Shown: positions 36,740 to 42,849 of the stretch, in pieces
Layout: the number at the start of each line of letters is the position of its first letter
Position numbering within the stretch: the first letter of the stretch is position 1
Assembly (NCBI GenBank): GCA_031282065.1
Contig: JAITEL010000086.1
Location: forward strand, 1-47,987
DNA length: 47,987 nucleotides
Direction: 5' to 3'
Source of the DNA: Treponema sp.
Lineage (GTDB): Bacteria; Spirochaetota; Spirochaetia; Treponematales; Breznakiellaceae
Notes under the pieces: model-generated
Seen by the model: only the letters and a program-made list of their open reading frames with translations
Database searches by the model: none
Told to the model about the DNA's origin: nothing
Position numbers and translations under genes: made by a program

Positions 36740-36883
36740 ATGGAAAAAAATTCGAACTACAAACCGGTATATGCCGAGGAAGACTGCGACGTTTATTGCG
36801 GTATATGCAACAAGACGGTTCGTATCAAAAAGGGAGAGGAGATTCCCCTTTGTTGCGGTAAATTAATGGAAGTTCTTGATTAA
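36740..36883 (+). CDS. Mini desulforedoxin-like metal-binding protein
   Basis: 47 residues from the ATG at 36740 (GGAGAG upstream); a frame opens at 36689 without signals. It has CGIC and LCCGKLM motifs, the desulforedoxin pattern of an N-terminal CxxC and a C-terminal CC that bind one iron or zinc. In desulfoferrodoxin such a domain precedes the superoxide reductase site; here it stands alone. A role in electron transfer or metal handling in an anaerobe is likely. A strong hairpin follows the stop. Confidence 0.8.
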   Translation: MEKNSNYKPVYAEEDCDVYCGICNKTVRIKKGEEIPLCCGKLMEVLD

Positions 36884-36945: not shown

Positions 36946-37230
36946 AAAGGCCAATCCTTTGGGGTTAATACCCTACACTTTGCTGCGGAAAACCGGGGGC
37001 GTAGGGACAACCCGACAAACCCCTCCTCTGGTGTCTCAGATAAAATAAGACATAATAATATCACATACTAACCAATGAGTTAAGGGAATTGATATCCCTA
37101 TGATACTCCATAAATCAAATATAAACAAATAAAAATGAGTTATACTTGATAAAAACGAATTATTTCTGTTGACATGTCGCGTGTAAGATGATAGAGTAAT
37201 AAAGCTTGTATATCATTCAAGGAGGCTATT
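36946..37230. other. AT-rich intergenic region upstream of the uptake operon
   Basis: No gene seen. The sequence becomes distinctly AT-rich from about 37030 to 37200, unlike its surroundings, and ends with the promoter and Shine-Dalgarno of the next operon. Confidence 0.6.
37169..37197 (+). promoter_or_regulatory. Sigma-70-like promoter of the lipoprotein-TonB receptor operon
   Basis: TTGACA (37169-37174), a 17-nt spacer and TAGAGT (37192-37197). The predicted transcript start, about 37204, lies 27 nt before the ATG at 37231, with AAGGAGG just upstream of that start. Confidence 0.7.
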
Positions 37231-38092
37231 ATGATGATTACAAAGAAAGCTGGAATTTTGTCGTTTTTACCATCCATGCACTTGGATTCTTTTCACCTTC
37301 CCCTATGGGGGGGTATCCTTAATTAGGAACCCCGTTCATTCGGGAGGGGCCTTGCTGGTTACGGCGCTCATGTTTGTGGCGCTGGTATTTACGGGGTGTC
37401 CCACGAATACGGACCCGGAGCCGGATCCCTGGGAAAAAATCGCCGATTGGAGTGAGGAAGGCGACTTTGAGCTGGGAACTGCCACCGCGGATATTGACGG
37501 AACCAACGGACGATATAAGGAAACGCCCCTGGGTAATTTGATTGCCGACGGCATAGCCGAATACGCCCGGTATACATCGGGAGAGCAAGTCGATTTTGCT
37601 TTACATAATGGTCAAGATCTTAAAGTTAATGGGCTTTCAGCAGGCAAACTTACCAACACTGATATTTCCGCTACAATCGGTAACGATACCCTGTATCTGG
37701 TAACCTATACCGGTGGGGAAATAAAAACTCTCATCAATATATTTGTAAGTAGTACTTCAAGCGGAACGTGGAAGGCCAATTGTGTTGTCCTGGTCTCCAA
37801 AGAGGTTAGTTATAGTGTTACCCCTAATAACGATGGACCACCCAGTGCAACAAGTATCAAGGTGAATAACAAGGAACTTGATCCGGCAAAAACGTACTGG
37901 GTTGCGGTTGGTAATTTTATCGGGGCTGCTACTGCGGAGCAGAACCGTTTTCCCGTGGGAACAGATAAAACCGATTTAGGCCCCACCAAACTATCCGAAG
38001 CTGTTGCCCAGTATATCTATGTACAAGGCACCATCAGTCCCCCGGAGGTAAACCGCATTTCAGGAACAGTACCAGAACTATCGACCAATTGA
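37231..38092 (+). CDS. Lipoprotein with 5'-nucleotidase C-terminal-like domain; frame broken at a G7 tract
   Basis: The best initiation site is the ATG at 37231 (AAGGAGG 5 nt upstream), but this frame stops at TAG 37324 after the run of seven G at 37307-37313. With six G it would read without interruption into LLVTALMFVALVFTGC (lipobox FTGC) and the rest of the protein to 38092; a TTG at 37352 with GGAGGGG upstream could give the 246-residue form alone. The mature part matches the 5'-nucleotidase C-terminal domain: ETPLGNLIADGIAEYAR, FALHNGQDLKVNGLSAGK, LVTYTGGEIKTLIN, KTYWVAVGNFI. The metallophosphatase domain is absent, so substrate binding rather than hydrolysis is expected. It is the first gene of the TonB-receptor operon. 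Confidence 0.75.
37307..37313 (+). repeat. Homopolymeric G7 tract in coding sequence
   Basis: Seven G at codons 26-28 of the first lipoprotein gene. Loss of one G or gain of two restores the frame. Such tracts switch surface proteins in pathogenic treponemes and other bacteria. Confidence 0.75.
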
Positions 38093-38180
38093 TACCCCGA
38101 GTACACTAGTAAGGAGGCTGATCAGACAGCCTCCGCTTATACCTGTTTCAAATAAAAACCAGGATATAGAGGAGTAAGGT

Positions 38181-40056
38181 ATGTATACATCATTCTTTGG
38201 AAAACGCCCTGGGTGGCTTAAGGGTATATGTTTCGGCGTTGCATTGCTGACCGCCCTGGCCTTTTCCGCCTGCGAGACCGGCAGCGACCCGGACAACACC
38301 CTGCCTCTGGCCGGGCCCCGTTCCATCCAGATAACGGCAAGGGACAGTACCCTTGTCTTGCAGTGGACCAAGGTCGCCCCCGCCCAGGGGGTGATTCCCT
38401 CCTATGAGGTATACTTTGGGACCATATCCTCTCCAGGAAGCGCGGAAAAATGGGGGGAAGTCCAGTCAAATACCTCCCAGTTGGTAACGGCGACCATTAC
38501 TGGGCTTGAGAATCACCGTACCTACTTACTATGTCTGGGTAAAAGCTATATATGCGGGTTTGGGACAATCGGACTTTAGCCCTACCGAGTATAGTATACC
38601 CATCCCGCCCCCGGCAACTCCCGGGACTTTAACCGTTACTTCTGGGGAGGAGATGCTTGAAGTAACGTGGGCAGCAGTAGAGGACGCCTTTACCTACGAG
38701 GTGTATTACAAAGCAGCCGGTTCCGGTGCGACTCCTCCGCCGGATACAGCGGAAAGTATGCTGACCGTATCCGAACCGGGCGCGGTGATCCTCGGCCTAG
38801 CCAATGATACGGCTTATACGATCTGGGTCAGGGCGCGTAATACCGCCGGGGAGTCCGCCTATTCGCGGAATACCGGCACGCCGCAGGCATCCGCACAAGC
38901 GCCCGCAAAAACCCCTGACAAACCGGCAGTTGTGGCCGGAGACGGCAAACTCACCCTTACCTGGAACCAGGTCCCCGGCGTCCCAGAGTACAAACTCTAC
39001 TACGGAACGAGTGATAATTTTTCCGCGGCAACAGCAGTTGATCGCACAATTCCCGCCAGCGCCCCCACGGTAAGCGCGGAAATCACCGGGCTTACCAATG
39101 GCGTCAAATATTATGTGTGGGTTAAATCGTCAAATTCACCGGGAGAATCATCTTCCCCCAGCCCAAGTGCCGAGGGAACACCCCAGGCAAAGGACCCCAT
39201 CAATTTCAGCAATCTCCAGTTTAGGCTTGGAGAGGCAGCCGCGGAGTACATCTTTGCCCAGGACCTTCCCCCCAGCGTCTTCTTCCCCGAAGGCAGGCCC
39301 AACACCGACCGCCTGACCAGAGTACAGGAAACAGCTTTGGGCAATTTGTTCACCGACGGCGCCGCATGGTATATCAGGAAGACCTACCCCGACGAAAATA
39401 TCGACTTTGTGTTTCTCAACGGCGGCTACATAGACAACGTTCTTCCAAAGGGAACCATTATGGTGGGCAGCATTTCGGGCATAACCCAGCCGGACAGCCG
39501 GAGAGATAAATTCATGCTCCTTACCCTGACCGGCGCGGACTTGAAAAAGTTCTTCAATGACGCCGAAGGCAAAAAGACAGAGATAGAACCCGGTGATGTA
39601 TCCGGGGTCGTGCATACCGGAAGGGGCGGCCCTCACAATACCGGTTTCTTCGGCGTGGTATCAAAAGAGGTGCGGTATACCCTTAGGTACTACAAACCGC
39701 CCGAGCTTCCCGATCCTCCGGAGGAAATAAGTTATGAGGACTCCGAACCTTACTACCATGGCTTTATCGACACGGAGAACGGCCTTACGATCAACGGCGA
39801 GCCCATTGATGACAGCAAAAACTACCGTATCTGTACCACCGATTACCTTGCCACCGGGGAGTATTTTACCCTGTTATACGAGAAAGGGCAAAATAAAAAA
39901 CTTATCGACACCCCCTTCTGGCACGGCGTAGCGGAGTACATCTACGATCAGGGCAGCATCACCCCGAAACTGGACGGCCGTATCAAGGTAGAAGGCGGGG
40001 TTCCGCTTCCTGCTCCCTGGGTTCCCGGTGATTTGACGTACAATCCCACACCCTGA
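38181..40056 (+). CDS. Lipoprotein with FnIII repeats and 5'-nucleotidase C-terminal-like domain; frameshifted
   Basis: Start ATG 38181 with AGAGGAG 6 nt upstream. A lipoprotein signal ends in LAFSAC. Three fibronectin type III-like repeats follow (ending YYVWVKAIYAG, YTIWVRARNTAGES, YYVWVKSSNSPGES), then a 5'-nucleotidase C-terminal-like domain (ETALGNLFTDGAAWYIR, FVFLNGGYIDN, KFMLLTLTGADLKKF, TTDYLATGEYF). No phosphatase domain. The first frame ends at 38579; the continuation is read in another frame from about 38527. The junction ACCTACTTACTATG should be ACCTACTATG, a 4-nt near-duplication at 38524-38531. Without it the protein has about 623 residues. It is followed 7 nt later by the TonB-dependent receptor gene. 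Confidence 0.75.
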
Positions 40057-40063
40057 TGGAAAG

Positions 40064-42163
40064 ATGATGAAATACCGTACCATTCTGGGATTCCTTTTTC
40101 TGGTTGTTCTGGCCGCGGCTGTGGGTGAAGAGGCGGAACCTAAGACCACTGCCGCGGAAGTCCCGGGAGAGGACGACATCTACGTCCTGCCTGAGGCGGA
40201 AGTGAACGCGGAACAAGACACCCCGGAACGTATCACCCGGGAAGAAATGGACCGGGATGGTGCCACGGATCTCTGGGAGGCGGTACAGTACACGCCGGGG
40301 GTGATCCGCTCTGGCGGAGGCAGGCGCAACGATTCCAACTTTTCGGTCCGAGGCTATGGTACCGACAGTGTACCGGTTTACGTTGATGGAATCCTTATGG
40401 CCAATCCCTACCGCGGGGAAGGGGACAGCGCCCGGTTCCTTACCGGGGATATGGAAAGCATTGAGATAGCAAAAGGCTACAGTTCGGAACTCCTGGGGGC
40501 CAATACCCTGGGAGGGGCGATCCTGCTTCGAACCGCCAAACCAAAGGAGCCCCTGGAGCTCTCGCTAAAAACCGGTTTGGGCCTGGACAGTGTTTTCAAT
40601 TACGCCGATTCCACCCATGTTCTTGCGGCGGGAACCAAACAGCCTTTTTTCTATGGAAAGGGGGTGTTTCAGTACCGGGATGTGGATCACTATCGGCTTC
40701 CCGATAGTTTCGAGCCTTCAGCTCAGAATCCCCAGGAAAAGGGAAACCGGCTTTGGTCAGATTCCAAAGACCTTAAGCTCACCTTGACCGGGGGACTCAC
40801 CCCGGCCGCTGATCTGGACATCTGGCTTACCTATGTGTATCAGAACGCGGACAAGGGGCTTTCCCCGCCAGATGTAGGTATCAAAGAGTACGCTATCTGG
40901 GACTGGCCGCTGTGGAACCGCCACAGCCTCTCCTTGAACGGTTCTTGGGGCATTGGCCCGTTTTCCATGAACAGTCTTTTTTATTTTGACAAATACCATA
41001 ACCGACTGGACGAGTATTACAATTATAGGGCCTTTGCAATGGGGATCCACGCTCCCCATTCGGATTATGATGAATATGCCTTGGGCGGCCGCCTCATGGG
41101 GAGTTGGGAAATAAACCCTAGGAATACCCTACAGGCCGCGCTGACCTACAAAAAAGAAGATCACCAGGGACTGAGGGGCAGCATCATTAATGAAGATGAA
41201 CTCACCGAAGAAATGCACGTACACGAAGACACCTGGTCCCTTGGTGCCGAATACACGGTAACTCCCTGGACTCCTCTCACCCTAAAAGCCGGTCTTGGCT
41301 TTGACGCCCTGGTCCCACAAGCATACTGGAACGATGAAAACGAATACAACAAACTCCTGGGTGCGGACTACTTTATTGTGCAGAGCCGGAATATGTTCCT
41401 CTATACCTGGCAGCTCGGCGTCTTTTACCGGATTCCTTGGGGAAACCCGGAAAACCTGAACCATGAACTCCGCTTGACCTATGCCCGGAAGAATCACTTT
41501 CCCACTATGGCCCAGCGTTATTCAACCCGTTTCGGTTCAACCTTGCCCAATCCTCATCTGGGACCTGAGATAGCAAACCATTTTGAATGGGGATACCGAG
41601 GGTACTTAGGTGGGACGGAAGGGCTTTTTGGTCTCACCCTGAACGCCGCCCTCTACTATAGCGTTATGACCGGCAAAATAGTAAGCGTTGAACTGCCCAA
41701 CCCCCACTATCCCAGTGCATCTGTCGAGTATTCCCGGAATCTGGATAGCCTTAGTTTTTGGGGCTTTGAATTGGCCCCAGATGTTACGCTCAGGGATTGG
41801 CTCACGATGGGTTTTGCCTTTTCCCTGAACCATTACCATATTGATCATAGTCAGGATGGTATGAGGGTCCTCAGTTACTATCCCCAGCTTACCCTTAACG
41901 GGTATGCAGTAATAAAGCCCCTTGCTTTTCTTTCGATTATCCCTCGCCTTGAGTATGTGGGTTCCCGGTACGCCGATACCGAAGGAACCGAGTTACTGGA
42001 GGCTTATGTTCTGGCCAGTCTCAAAATCACGAGCTCATGGAGGAACTATGTCTCGATCTCTGCGGCACTTGACAATATCTTTGATACATACTATGAAATA
42101 AGACGCTCTTCCCCCCAAGGAGGCCGGAGTATTACCGTGATGCTGACCGTGCACTATAGATGA
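40064..42163 (+). CDS. TonB-dependent outer-membrane receptor
   Basis: 699 residues. Signal peptide (MKYRTILGFLFLVVLAAAVG), then a TonB-box-like segment (DDIYVLPEAEVNA) and a plug domain at about 50-165 (LWEAVQYTPGVIRSGGGRRND, NFSVRGYGTDSVPVYVDG, IEIAKGYSSELLGANTLGGAI). The 22-strand barrel fills the remainder, ending in aromatic VMLTVHYR. It imports a ligand too large or rare for porins; the ligand is not evident, but the preceding nucleotidase-like lipoproteins make a nucleotide, nucleoside or phosphate compound a guess. ATG 40064 or 40067; GGAAAG precedes. The stop overlaps the tonB start (ATGA). Confidence 0.9.
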   Translation: MMKYRTILGFLFLVVLAAAVGEEAEPKTTAAEVPGEDDIYVLPEAEVNAEQDTPERITREEMDRDGATDLWEAVQYTPGVIRSGGGRRNDSNFSVRGYGTDSVPVYVDGILMANPYRGEGDSARFLTGDMESIEIAKGYSSELLGANTLGGAILLRTAKPKEPLELSLKTGLGLDSVFNYADSTHVLAAGTKQPFFYGKGVFQYRDVDHYRLPDSFEPSAQNPQEKGNRLWSDSKDLKLTLTGGLTPAADLDIWLTYVYQNADKGLSPPDVGIKEYAIWDWPLWNRHSLSLNGSWGIGPFSMNSLFYFDKYHNRLDEYYNYRAFAMGIHAPHSDYDEYALGGRLMGSWEINPRNTLQAALTYKKEDHQGLRGSIINEDELTEEMHVHEDTWSLGAEYTVTPWTPLTLKAGLGFDALVPQAYWNDENEYNKLLGADYFIVQSRNMFLYTWQLGVFYRIPWGNPENLNHELRLTYARKNHFPTMAQRYSTRFGSTLPNPHLGPEIANHFEWGYRGYLGGTEGLFGLTLNAALYYSVMTGKIVSVELPNPHYPSASVEYSRNLDSLSFWGFELAPDVTLRDWLTMGFAFSLNHYHIDHSQDGMRVLSYYPQLTLNGYAVIKPLAFLSIIPRLEYVGSRYADTEGTELLEAYVLASLKITSSWRNYVSISAALDNIFDTYYEIRRSSPQGGRSITVMLTVHYR

Positions 42164-42849
42164 ACAAGCATGCTCTGTTTCCCCTGATGATAGGCGCTTC
42201 GGTATGTTTTCACGGGGGTCTCTTCTTCCTTTCGGTAAACACCGCTGGCCCTCTGGCGCTCCCGGCCGGGAAAGAGCAGGAGGAAACCTTCTCCCTGGTC
42301 AACATTACCCTCATAGAACCCGCAGTCCCGCTTCCTCCTCCCGCTTCCCCGAAACCGCCTCCCCCCCGGTCTCAGGAACCGCTCCCGGTTCCTGAGACCG
42401 GGCCCGCGGAACAGTACCTTGACCAGGCAGAGGAACACGTCGAAGAACCGGGTGAACGAGAGGACAAGGCAGACCTGGCCCTGGGACCCGTGGAAGGTAC
42501 CGGTCATACCGGGACCGGGGAAAGGGCAGCGGAGATGCGGGGAAGAACCACTGCAAACACGGCTCAGAGTGCCGAATACATCAAGCGCAACTACCGCTAC
42601 CTGCAACGGCGGATACGGGATAAACTGGTCTATCCATCTCAAGCCCGGAAAGCAGGCTTGCAGGGAGTAAGCGAGGTGTCCTTTACCATCCACGAAGATG
42701 GCCGGGTCAGTGCCGTAAGCCTGGTGAAAAGCAGCGGCCACTCCATCCTGGACGAAGCCGCTCTGGAGACCATCTATGCCGCAGCCCCCTTCCCACGCCC
42801 TCCAGCCCCGGCCAGGATAGCCATACCCATAGCATTCAGGCTGAGATAG
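42160..42849 (+). CDS. tonB: TonB-family energy transducer
   Basis: 229 residues. An N-terminal signal-anchor (FPLMIGASVCFHGGLFFLSV), a periplasmic Pro/Glu-rich spacer (about 60-125) and the TonB C-terminal domain (YLQRRIRDKLVYPSQARKAGLQGVSEVSFTIHEDGRVSAVSLVKSSGHSILDEAALETI, 145-205; written only as the YPSQARKAGLQG signature). It couples the proton gradient to the receptor encoded directly upstream. ExbB/ExbD are not in the window. The stop is 11 bp from the convergent glmS stop. Confidence 0.92.
   Translation: MNKHALFPLMIGASVCFHGGLFFLSVNTAGPLALPAGKEQEETFSLVNITLIEPAVPLPPPASPKPPPPRSQEPLPVPETGPAEQYLDQAEEHVEEPGEREDKADLALGPVEGTGHTGTGERAAEMRGRTTANTAQSAEYIKRNYRYLQRRIRDKLVYPSQARKAGLQGVSEVSFTIHEDGRVSAVSLVKSSGHSILDEAALETIYAAAPFPRPPAPARIAIPIAFRLR

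Follow-up and report, generated by a model that had tools for sequence, protein, structure and literature searches.

Lipoprotein-assisted uptake through TonB-dependent receptors has been worked out in Bacteroides, where SusD folds and propellers serve as the catchers. For vitamin B12, the surface lipoprotein BtuG forms a lid on the receptor BtuB (PMC10404256), and xenosiderophores are taken up by the receptor XusA together with the surface lipoprotein XusB (PMC13142918). Here we analyze a locus of Treponema sp. in which two lipoproteins bearing a 5'-nucleotidase C-terminal domain, hereafter lip1 and lip2, precede a TonB-dependent receptor and TonB. The locus lies in contig JAITEL010000086.1 of assembly GCA_031282065.1, all 47,987 nucleotides (nt) of which make up the stretch analyzed (the window); it is contig C117 of a 2.65-Mb metagenome-assembled genome (MAG), 98% complete and in 179 contigs. 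We consider it moderately probable that the locus serves TonB-dependent, lipoprotein-assisted import of a metal complex, the capture module being a repurposed nucleotidase C domain.

Operon layout and comparison with described systems

Four co-directional genes, lip1, lip2, the receptor gene and tonB, occupy positions 37169-42849 behind a consensus promoter at 37169, and in outline this is the anatomy proposed in a first-pass annotation made from the DNA letters alone. The features are as follows.

37169..37197, + strand: sigma-70-type promoter TTGACA-17-TAGAGT, with TG before the second hexamer (consensus match only)
37231..37260, + strand: original 5' end of lip1, ATGATGATTACAAAG... after AAGGAGG, which aligns with the lip1 start of relative G038
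37261..37351, + strand: insertion of about 91-94 nt in the lip1 signal peptide, a GC-rich hairpin with a G7 run
37352..38092, + strand: lip1, with lipobox ...LVFTGC and PF02872 and no catalytic domain (profile match, fold model)
38181..38579, + strand: 5' part of lip2, with lipoprotein signal (..LAFSAC) and first FnIII repeat (open reading frame, Pfam)
38523..38530, + strand: TACTTACT, a 4-bp (TACT) tandem duplication interrupting the lip2 reading frame, absent from five relatives
38506..40056, + strand: 3' part of lip2, with FnIII repeats and PF02872 (open reading frame, Pfam; a relative's protein was modeled)
40064..42163, + strand: TonB-dependent receptor, 699 amino acids, plug and barrel (Pfam, barrel matches)
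42160..42849, + strand: TonB, 229 amino acids, ATGA overlap with the receptor (TonB_C match)

The lip1-lip2 spacing is 88 nt and the lip2-receptor spacing 7 nt, and the translational coupling previously claimed for receptor and TonB is seen in the overlap of stop and start as ATGA (42160-42163). In G038, a similar promoter (TTGACA-17-TTTAAT) with the same -35/-10 spacing lies upstream of lip1. No Rfam RNA or riboswitch matched upstream of the window's lip1 at E<=1. The two lipoproteins had also been taken as intact genes, and here the annotation failed, as both are frame-broken in the window assembly.

Like BtuB-BtuG, the operon encodes side by side a TonB-dependent receptor and a lipid-anchored, putative small-molecule catcher, and a BtuFCD-type inner-membrane importer was found in the window's relatives. 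In the present operon, however, the catcher consists of FnIII repeats bearing a nucleotidase C domain, whereas BtuG is a propeller; moreover, the window system is without a riboswitch and belongs to a spirochaete, and a BNR-like lipoprotein is an extra gene in many relatives. XusA-XusB likewise combines a receptor with a surface lipoprotein for a metal complex, a surface location that is predicted for the present lipoprotein. It differs in its components: XusB is a propeller of the DUF4374 family, a carboxypeptidase-like domain is present at the N terminus of XusA, and XusC is a PepSY protein, versus FecBCD in the window's relatives. The likeness to SusC/SusD drawn in the first-pass annotation holds for the adjacent, conserved layout of lipoprotein and receptor genes but not for a close relationship: Pfam matched no SusD or carboxypeptidase-regulatory domain, the lipoprotein gene lies upstream of the receptor, and the context is of metal type. 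With UshA/CD73 the lipoproteins share the C-terminal domain fold, while the catalytic domain is missing and R410, F429, and N431 are lost. By analogy, the system would work like BtuBG/XusAB and be a member of neither, nor of SusC/SusD; the adjacency and conservation expected of such lipoprotein-assisted uptake are both found here.

Fold and nucleotide site of the lipoproteins

As had been proposed, both lipoproteins carry the 5'-nucleotidase C-terminal domain without the catalytic domain. A Pfam search matched PF02872 in lip1 (37475-37924, 4.6e-18) and in lip2 taken as a whole (38181-40056; match at 39307-39861, 2.2e-16), with no match to the metallophosphatase PF00149 in either, and fn3 matches in lip2 confirmed the FnIII repeats assigned to one of the two. 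Of the 24 relatives included in the scan as full-length enzymes, 23 carry the catalytic GNH[ED] motif, which occurs in no lip1 or lip2. Structure models point to the same fold rather than another: the best structural matches of the lip1 model (predicted local distance difference test score [pLDDT] 73, signal peptide at low confidence) were 5'-nucleotidases, in their C domains, and the model of the lip2 protein of relative G141 (pLDDT 81) has three FnIII domains followed by a 5'-nucleotidase C-domain fold, the two models having been built from only 7 and 17 sequences. Altogether, the data support that the lipoproteins descend from the ligand-side C-terminal domain of a 5'-nucleotidase, with loss of the catalytic domain. 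A split nucleotidase with a separate metallophosphatase partner was also considered; no such partner was found among the scanned neighbours, and at the one candidate gap, in G135, a lipoprotein with an FGE-sulfatase domain is encoded.

In UshA, the purine is stacked between Phe429 and Phe498 (PMC7922932). We aligned the lipoproteins to 23 full-length nucleotidases retaining GNH[ED] and compared their residues at the ligand site. R379, R410, N431, and D504 were presumed to be further nucleotide contacts of UshA, their positions alone being checked, in the 1USH sequence; these four are invariant in the 23 enzymes, and F429 is nearly so. The lip2 proteins retain R379 and an aromatic residue at the F498-equivalent position, with R410 changed to D in 12 of 19, F429 mostly lost, and N431 mostly D. 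In lip1 proteins, R410 and F429 are lost and D504 is mostly lost, with R379 and the F498-equivalent aromatic mostly kept. The alignment near F429 is uncertain by a few residues, and the main lip2 group has no conserved aromatic residue nearby. From these substitutions, the nucleotide site of the lipoproteins appears largely dismantled on a retained fold.

The window genome also encodes an orphan FnIII plus PF02872 lipoprotein without an adjacent receptor (G000:C169 138-1844; L002, L113), and this paralogue still has a tyrosine at the F429 position.

Lipoprotein-receptor pairing and genomic context

The receptor search covered 200 genomes of the family and gave matches in 28. A lip2-type protein was encoded directly upstream of the receptor in 17 of 17 loci with at least 50% receptor identity and contig room, an order far beyond chance that bears out the expected conservation of the neighbourhood. 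Around the more distant receptors L025-L035 and the window genome's other four receptors, a search out to 1.5 kb found no lip2, and the tandem receptors of G146 have upstream a short lip1-like protein of weak similarity. The order lip1 before lip2 recurs in G041, G035, G038, G135, and G207/L133, the last being a spirochaete of another family whose four-gene order is the same as in the window. At L078 and L080, several lip1-like single-domain lipoproteins are encoded upstream of a receptor. Next to these genes stand an FGE-sulfatase-domain lipoprotein (L078 4578-5597, Pfam match) and a protein resembling it by look (L080 2808-3593).

Among 393 phylum-wide genomes, the full FnIII plus PF02872 architecture was confined to the window genome, G141, G143, and G207. 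Named records with this combination are mostly Treponema-like MAGs, plus a single MAG of the Deferribacteraceae with a sample code, Pcl387, that some Treponema bins also bear; we take the sample codes of these MAG series to stand for termite guts. The best reading is that the system is found mainly in termite-gut Treponema relatives. Two lip2 homologues (L134 and L137, 36-41%) sit on Deferribacteraceae-binned contigs of sample Pcl387, through either gene transfer or a bin mix-up. Our search of the open-access literature, outside which subscription papers fall, found nothing linking PF02872/'5-nucleotidase C-terminal' or Treponema primitia with TonB.

The genes around the relatives' operons point to metal-complex import. 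In G141, the operon runs BNR-like lipoprotein, lip2, receptor, TonB, Peripla_BP_2, FecCD, and ABC_tran ATPase, with a divergent block of DUF364/DUF4213, a methyltransferase, CobW, an ABC (ATP-binding cassette) ATPase, SBP_bac_6, and a helix-turn-helix/PBP_like regulator; overlapping parts of this layout were found in G111, G143, G124, G132, and G133. The BNR-like lipoprotein precedes lip2 in many relatives, where the term propeller rests on weak BNR/DUF6242 matches, and the G141 copy, which has no Pfam match, is tied to the others by sequence similarity. According to a DUF364 structure paper, neighbourhoods of this family are linked to iron, tungstate, vanadium, and molybdate transport (PMC2954201). 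The distant receptors L117 and L118 (38-39% identity), which are without lip2, adjoin DUF364 and TonB, and L118 also FecBCD; the importer and DUF364 thus seem to be the older core, with lip2 a later capture add-on. The window genome itself has a DUF364-methyltransferase-CobW block on C90 and, on C28, a FecC sharing 75% identity with the G141 protein. Within the family, DUF364 is present in 22 of the 28 genomes with a receptor match and in 15 of the 172 without one (Fisher p about 2e-14, relatedness ignored).

The receptor has the marks of a TonB-dependent receptor, namely a Plug match (3.3e-21), a barrel family match, and TonB_C in its partner, and both genes are intact in frame, the receptor being 89% and TonB 76% identical to the G041 counterparts. 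The suggested search for exbBD elsewhere in the genome located ExbB on C71 and two ExbD on C146. A second MotA_ExbB match, on C78, adjoins a MotB-like gene and is taken as a probable flagellar stator. The system had been called unusual for spirochaetes, a description that is fair for the lipoproteins and less so for the receptor, as five Plug-domain receptors in all are encoded in this genome.

Proposed uptake pathway and rival explanations

The proposal builds on the domain content, the loss of the catalytic domain and of nucleotide contacts, the conserved pairing, and the context. Lipid-anchored lip2, its C domain borne on three FnIII repeats, would capture a metal complex at the predicted surface location and hand it to the receptor beneath, in a putative physical complex resembling the BtuG or XusB lids, and lip1, as the single-domain version, may be a second capture protein in the genus. 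TonB with ExbB/ExbD would power the receptor, and Peripla_BP_2 with FecCD/ATPase, a FecBCD-type ABC importer, would carry the complex across the inner membrane. DUF364, the methyltransferase, and CobW might then process the metal or chelator, as suggested by PMC2954201 and the family names. The ligand would be siderophore-like or another metallophore, perhaps of iron, molybdenum/tungsten, vanadium, or nickel.

Several observations weigh against metal-complex uptake by this locus. The similarity of the receptor extends to heme, siderophore, B12, and metallophore receptors, too wide a range to assign a ligand, and all its NCBIfam matches fall below cut-off. The window operon itself has no adjoining ABC importer, DUF364, or BNR-like gene, these being on other contigs. 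The test of co-occurrence between DUF364 and the receptor takes no account of the shared ancestry of the genomes. Downstream of a paralogous pair in G037 lies a sugar-type ABC importer, and other copies may therefore have other ligands. Finally, lip1 and lip2 are broken in the window, by either real disruption or local assembly error; the latter is possible because such errors can occur in a MAG assembled into 179 contigs. The capture step may thus be off in the window's own genome, or the breaks may be errors of assembly.

Concerning these breaks, the ATG at 37231, behind the ribosome site, is out of frame with the lip1 open reading frame (37352-38092) because of the insertion of about 90 nt. 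The insertion follows ...GGAATTTTG inside the signal peptide, is absent from the aligned G035 and G038, and folds better than most shuffles (z -2.6). It was also considered as a repeated mobile element, but the genome has one full copy and two chance-level partial matches. G041 shares the 3' part of the insertion, there with a usable ATG opening a normal signal peptide; the G041 contig terminates in a poly-C run, which may be a sequencing artefact. In lip2, the TACT duplication splits the gene into frames 38181-38579 and 38506-40056. Relatives keep intact copies of both lip1 and lip2; the lip2 of G038 has a one-base frame break, and some receptor paralogues of relatives are fragmented.

The two lesions, which are independent, suggest a decaying operon, in which lip1 and lip2 are pseudogenes and the receptor functions alone or is also declining, and the distant receptors without lip2 and the frame breaks in G038 lip2 and some receptor paralogues point the same way. 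On the other hand, the receptor and TonB frames are intact and well conserved, both lipoprotein genes are open in relatives, and the assembly may contain local errors; we regard decay as a serious possibility that we would nonetheless doubt, and it is compatible with metal-complex uptake in the relatives. The lesions could instead be slippage-type on/off states of switchable surface lipoproteins, given the G run in the lip1 insert and the tandem tetranucleotide TACT in lip2. Two TACT units and seven G are, however, short for phase variation, and with the G041 poly-C at a contig end perhaps artefactual, switching seems very unlikely.

With regard to the ligand, the first-pass annotation suggested that the lipoproteins capture a nucleotide for the receptor. 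Nucleotide or nucleoside scavenging of this kind agrees with the domain ancestry and with R379 and the F498-equivalent aromatic being kept in lip2 and mostly in lip1, yet R410, F429, and N431 are replaced, most of the contacts invariant in the enzymes are lost, and the context is FecBCD/DUF364/CobW rather than nucleoside transport; the suggestion is therefore not supported, and we judge it unlikely. Corrinoid (B12-type) uptake, with lip2 as a BtuG/BtuH-like catcher possibly recognizing an adenine lower ligand, would suit a FecCD partner most like BtuC, a BNR-like lipoprotein and receptor layout similar to BtuG-BtuB, and the nearby CobW. No cobalamin riboswitch was found, however, either in this operon or at the loci of ten relatives. 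By contrast, one precedes each of two further receptors of the window genome (L090 201-401 on G000:C140; L091 410-621 on C14), and a third receptor, on C89, lies within what reads as a cob biosynthesis operon. On this evidence, B12 uptake here is improbable.

Metal-complex uptake invites a broader and more tentative suggestion, which we find plausible without holding it as the likelier outcome: an enzyme-free 5'-nucleotidase C domain, re-tooled for surface capture of metal complexes, would be a third kind of capture module for TonB transporters, present in spirochaetes of the termite gut as several copies inherited together (lip1, lip2, and paralogues) and matched to particular receptors. If so, spirochaetes would have reached Bacteroides-like lipoprotein-assisted uptake using an enzyme-derived domain, an example of a substrate-binding domain turned to use as a transport receptor. 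The system would also offer a first handle on scarce-metal acquisition by the dominant bacteria of termite hindguts, some of which rely on metal-rich enzymes for nitrogen fixation or acetate production. The idea may be testable in culture because close relatives of the cluster are on two closed genomes.

Three minor observations concern neighbouring genes. Upstream of the window operon, a small open reading frame (36740-36883) encodes about 46 amino acids, several of them cysteines (MEKNSNYKPVYAEEDCDVYCGICNKTVRIKKGEEIPLCCGKLMEVLD), and its product may be a small protein that binds metal. In G141, the HTH_17-PBP_like regulator gene (L173 7698-8606) adjoins SBP_bac_6 and may encode a ligand-sensing regulator of the block. 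Two nitrogenase-component-1-like genes converge on the DUF364 block of the same genome (L173 557-7643), accompanied by a corrinoid protein, URO-D methyltransferases, and a RACo protein.

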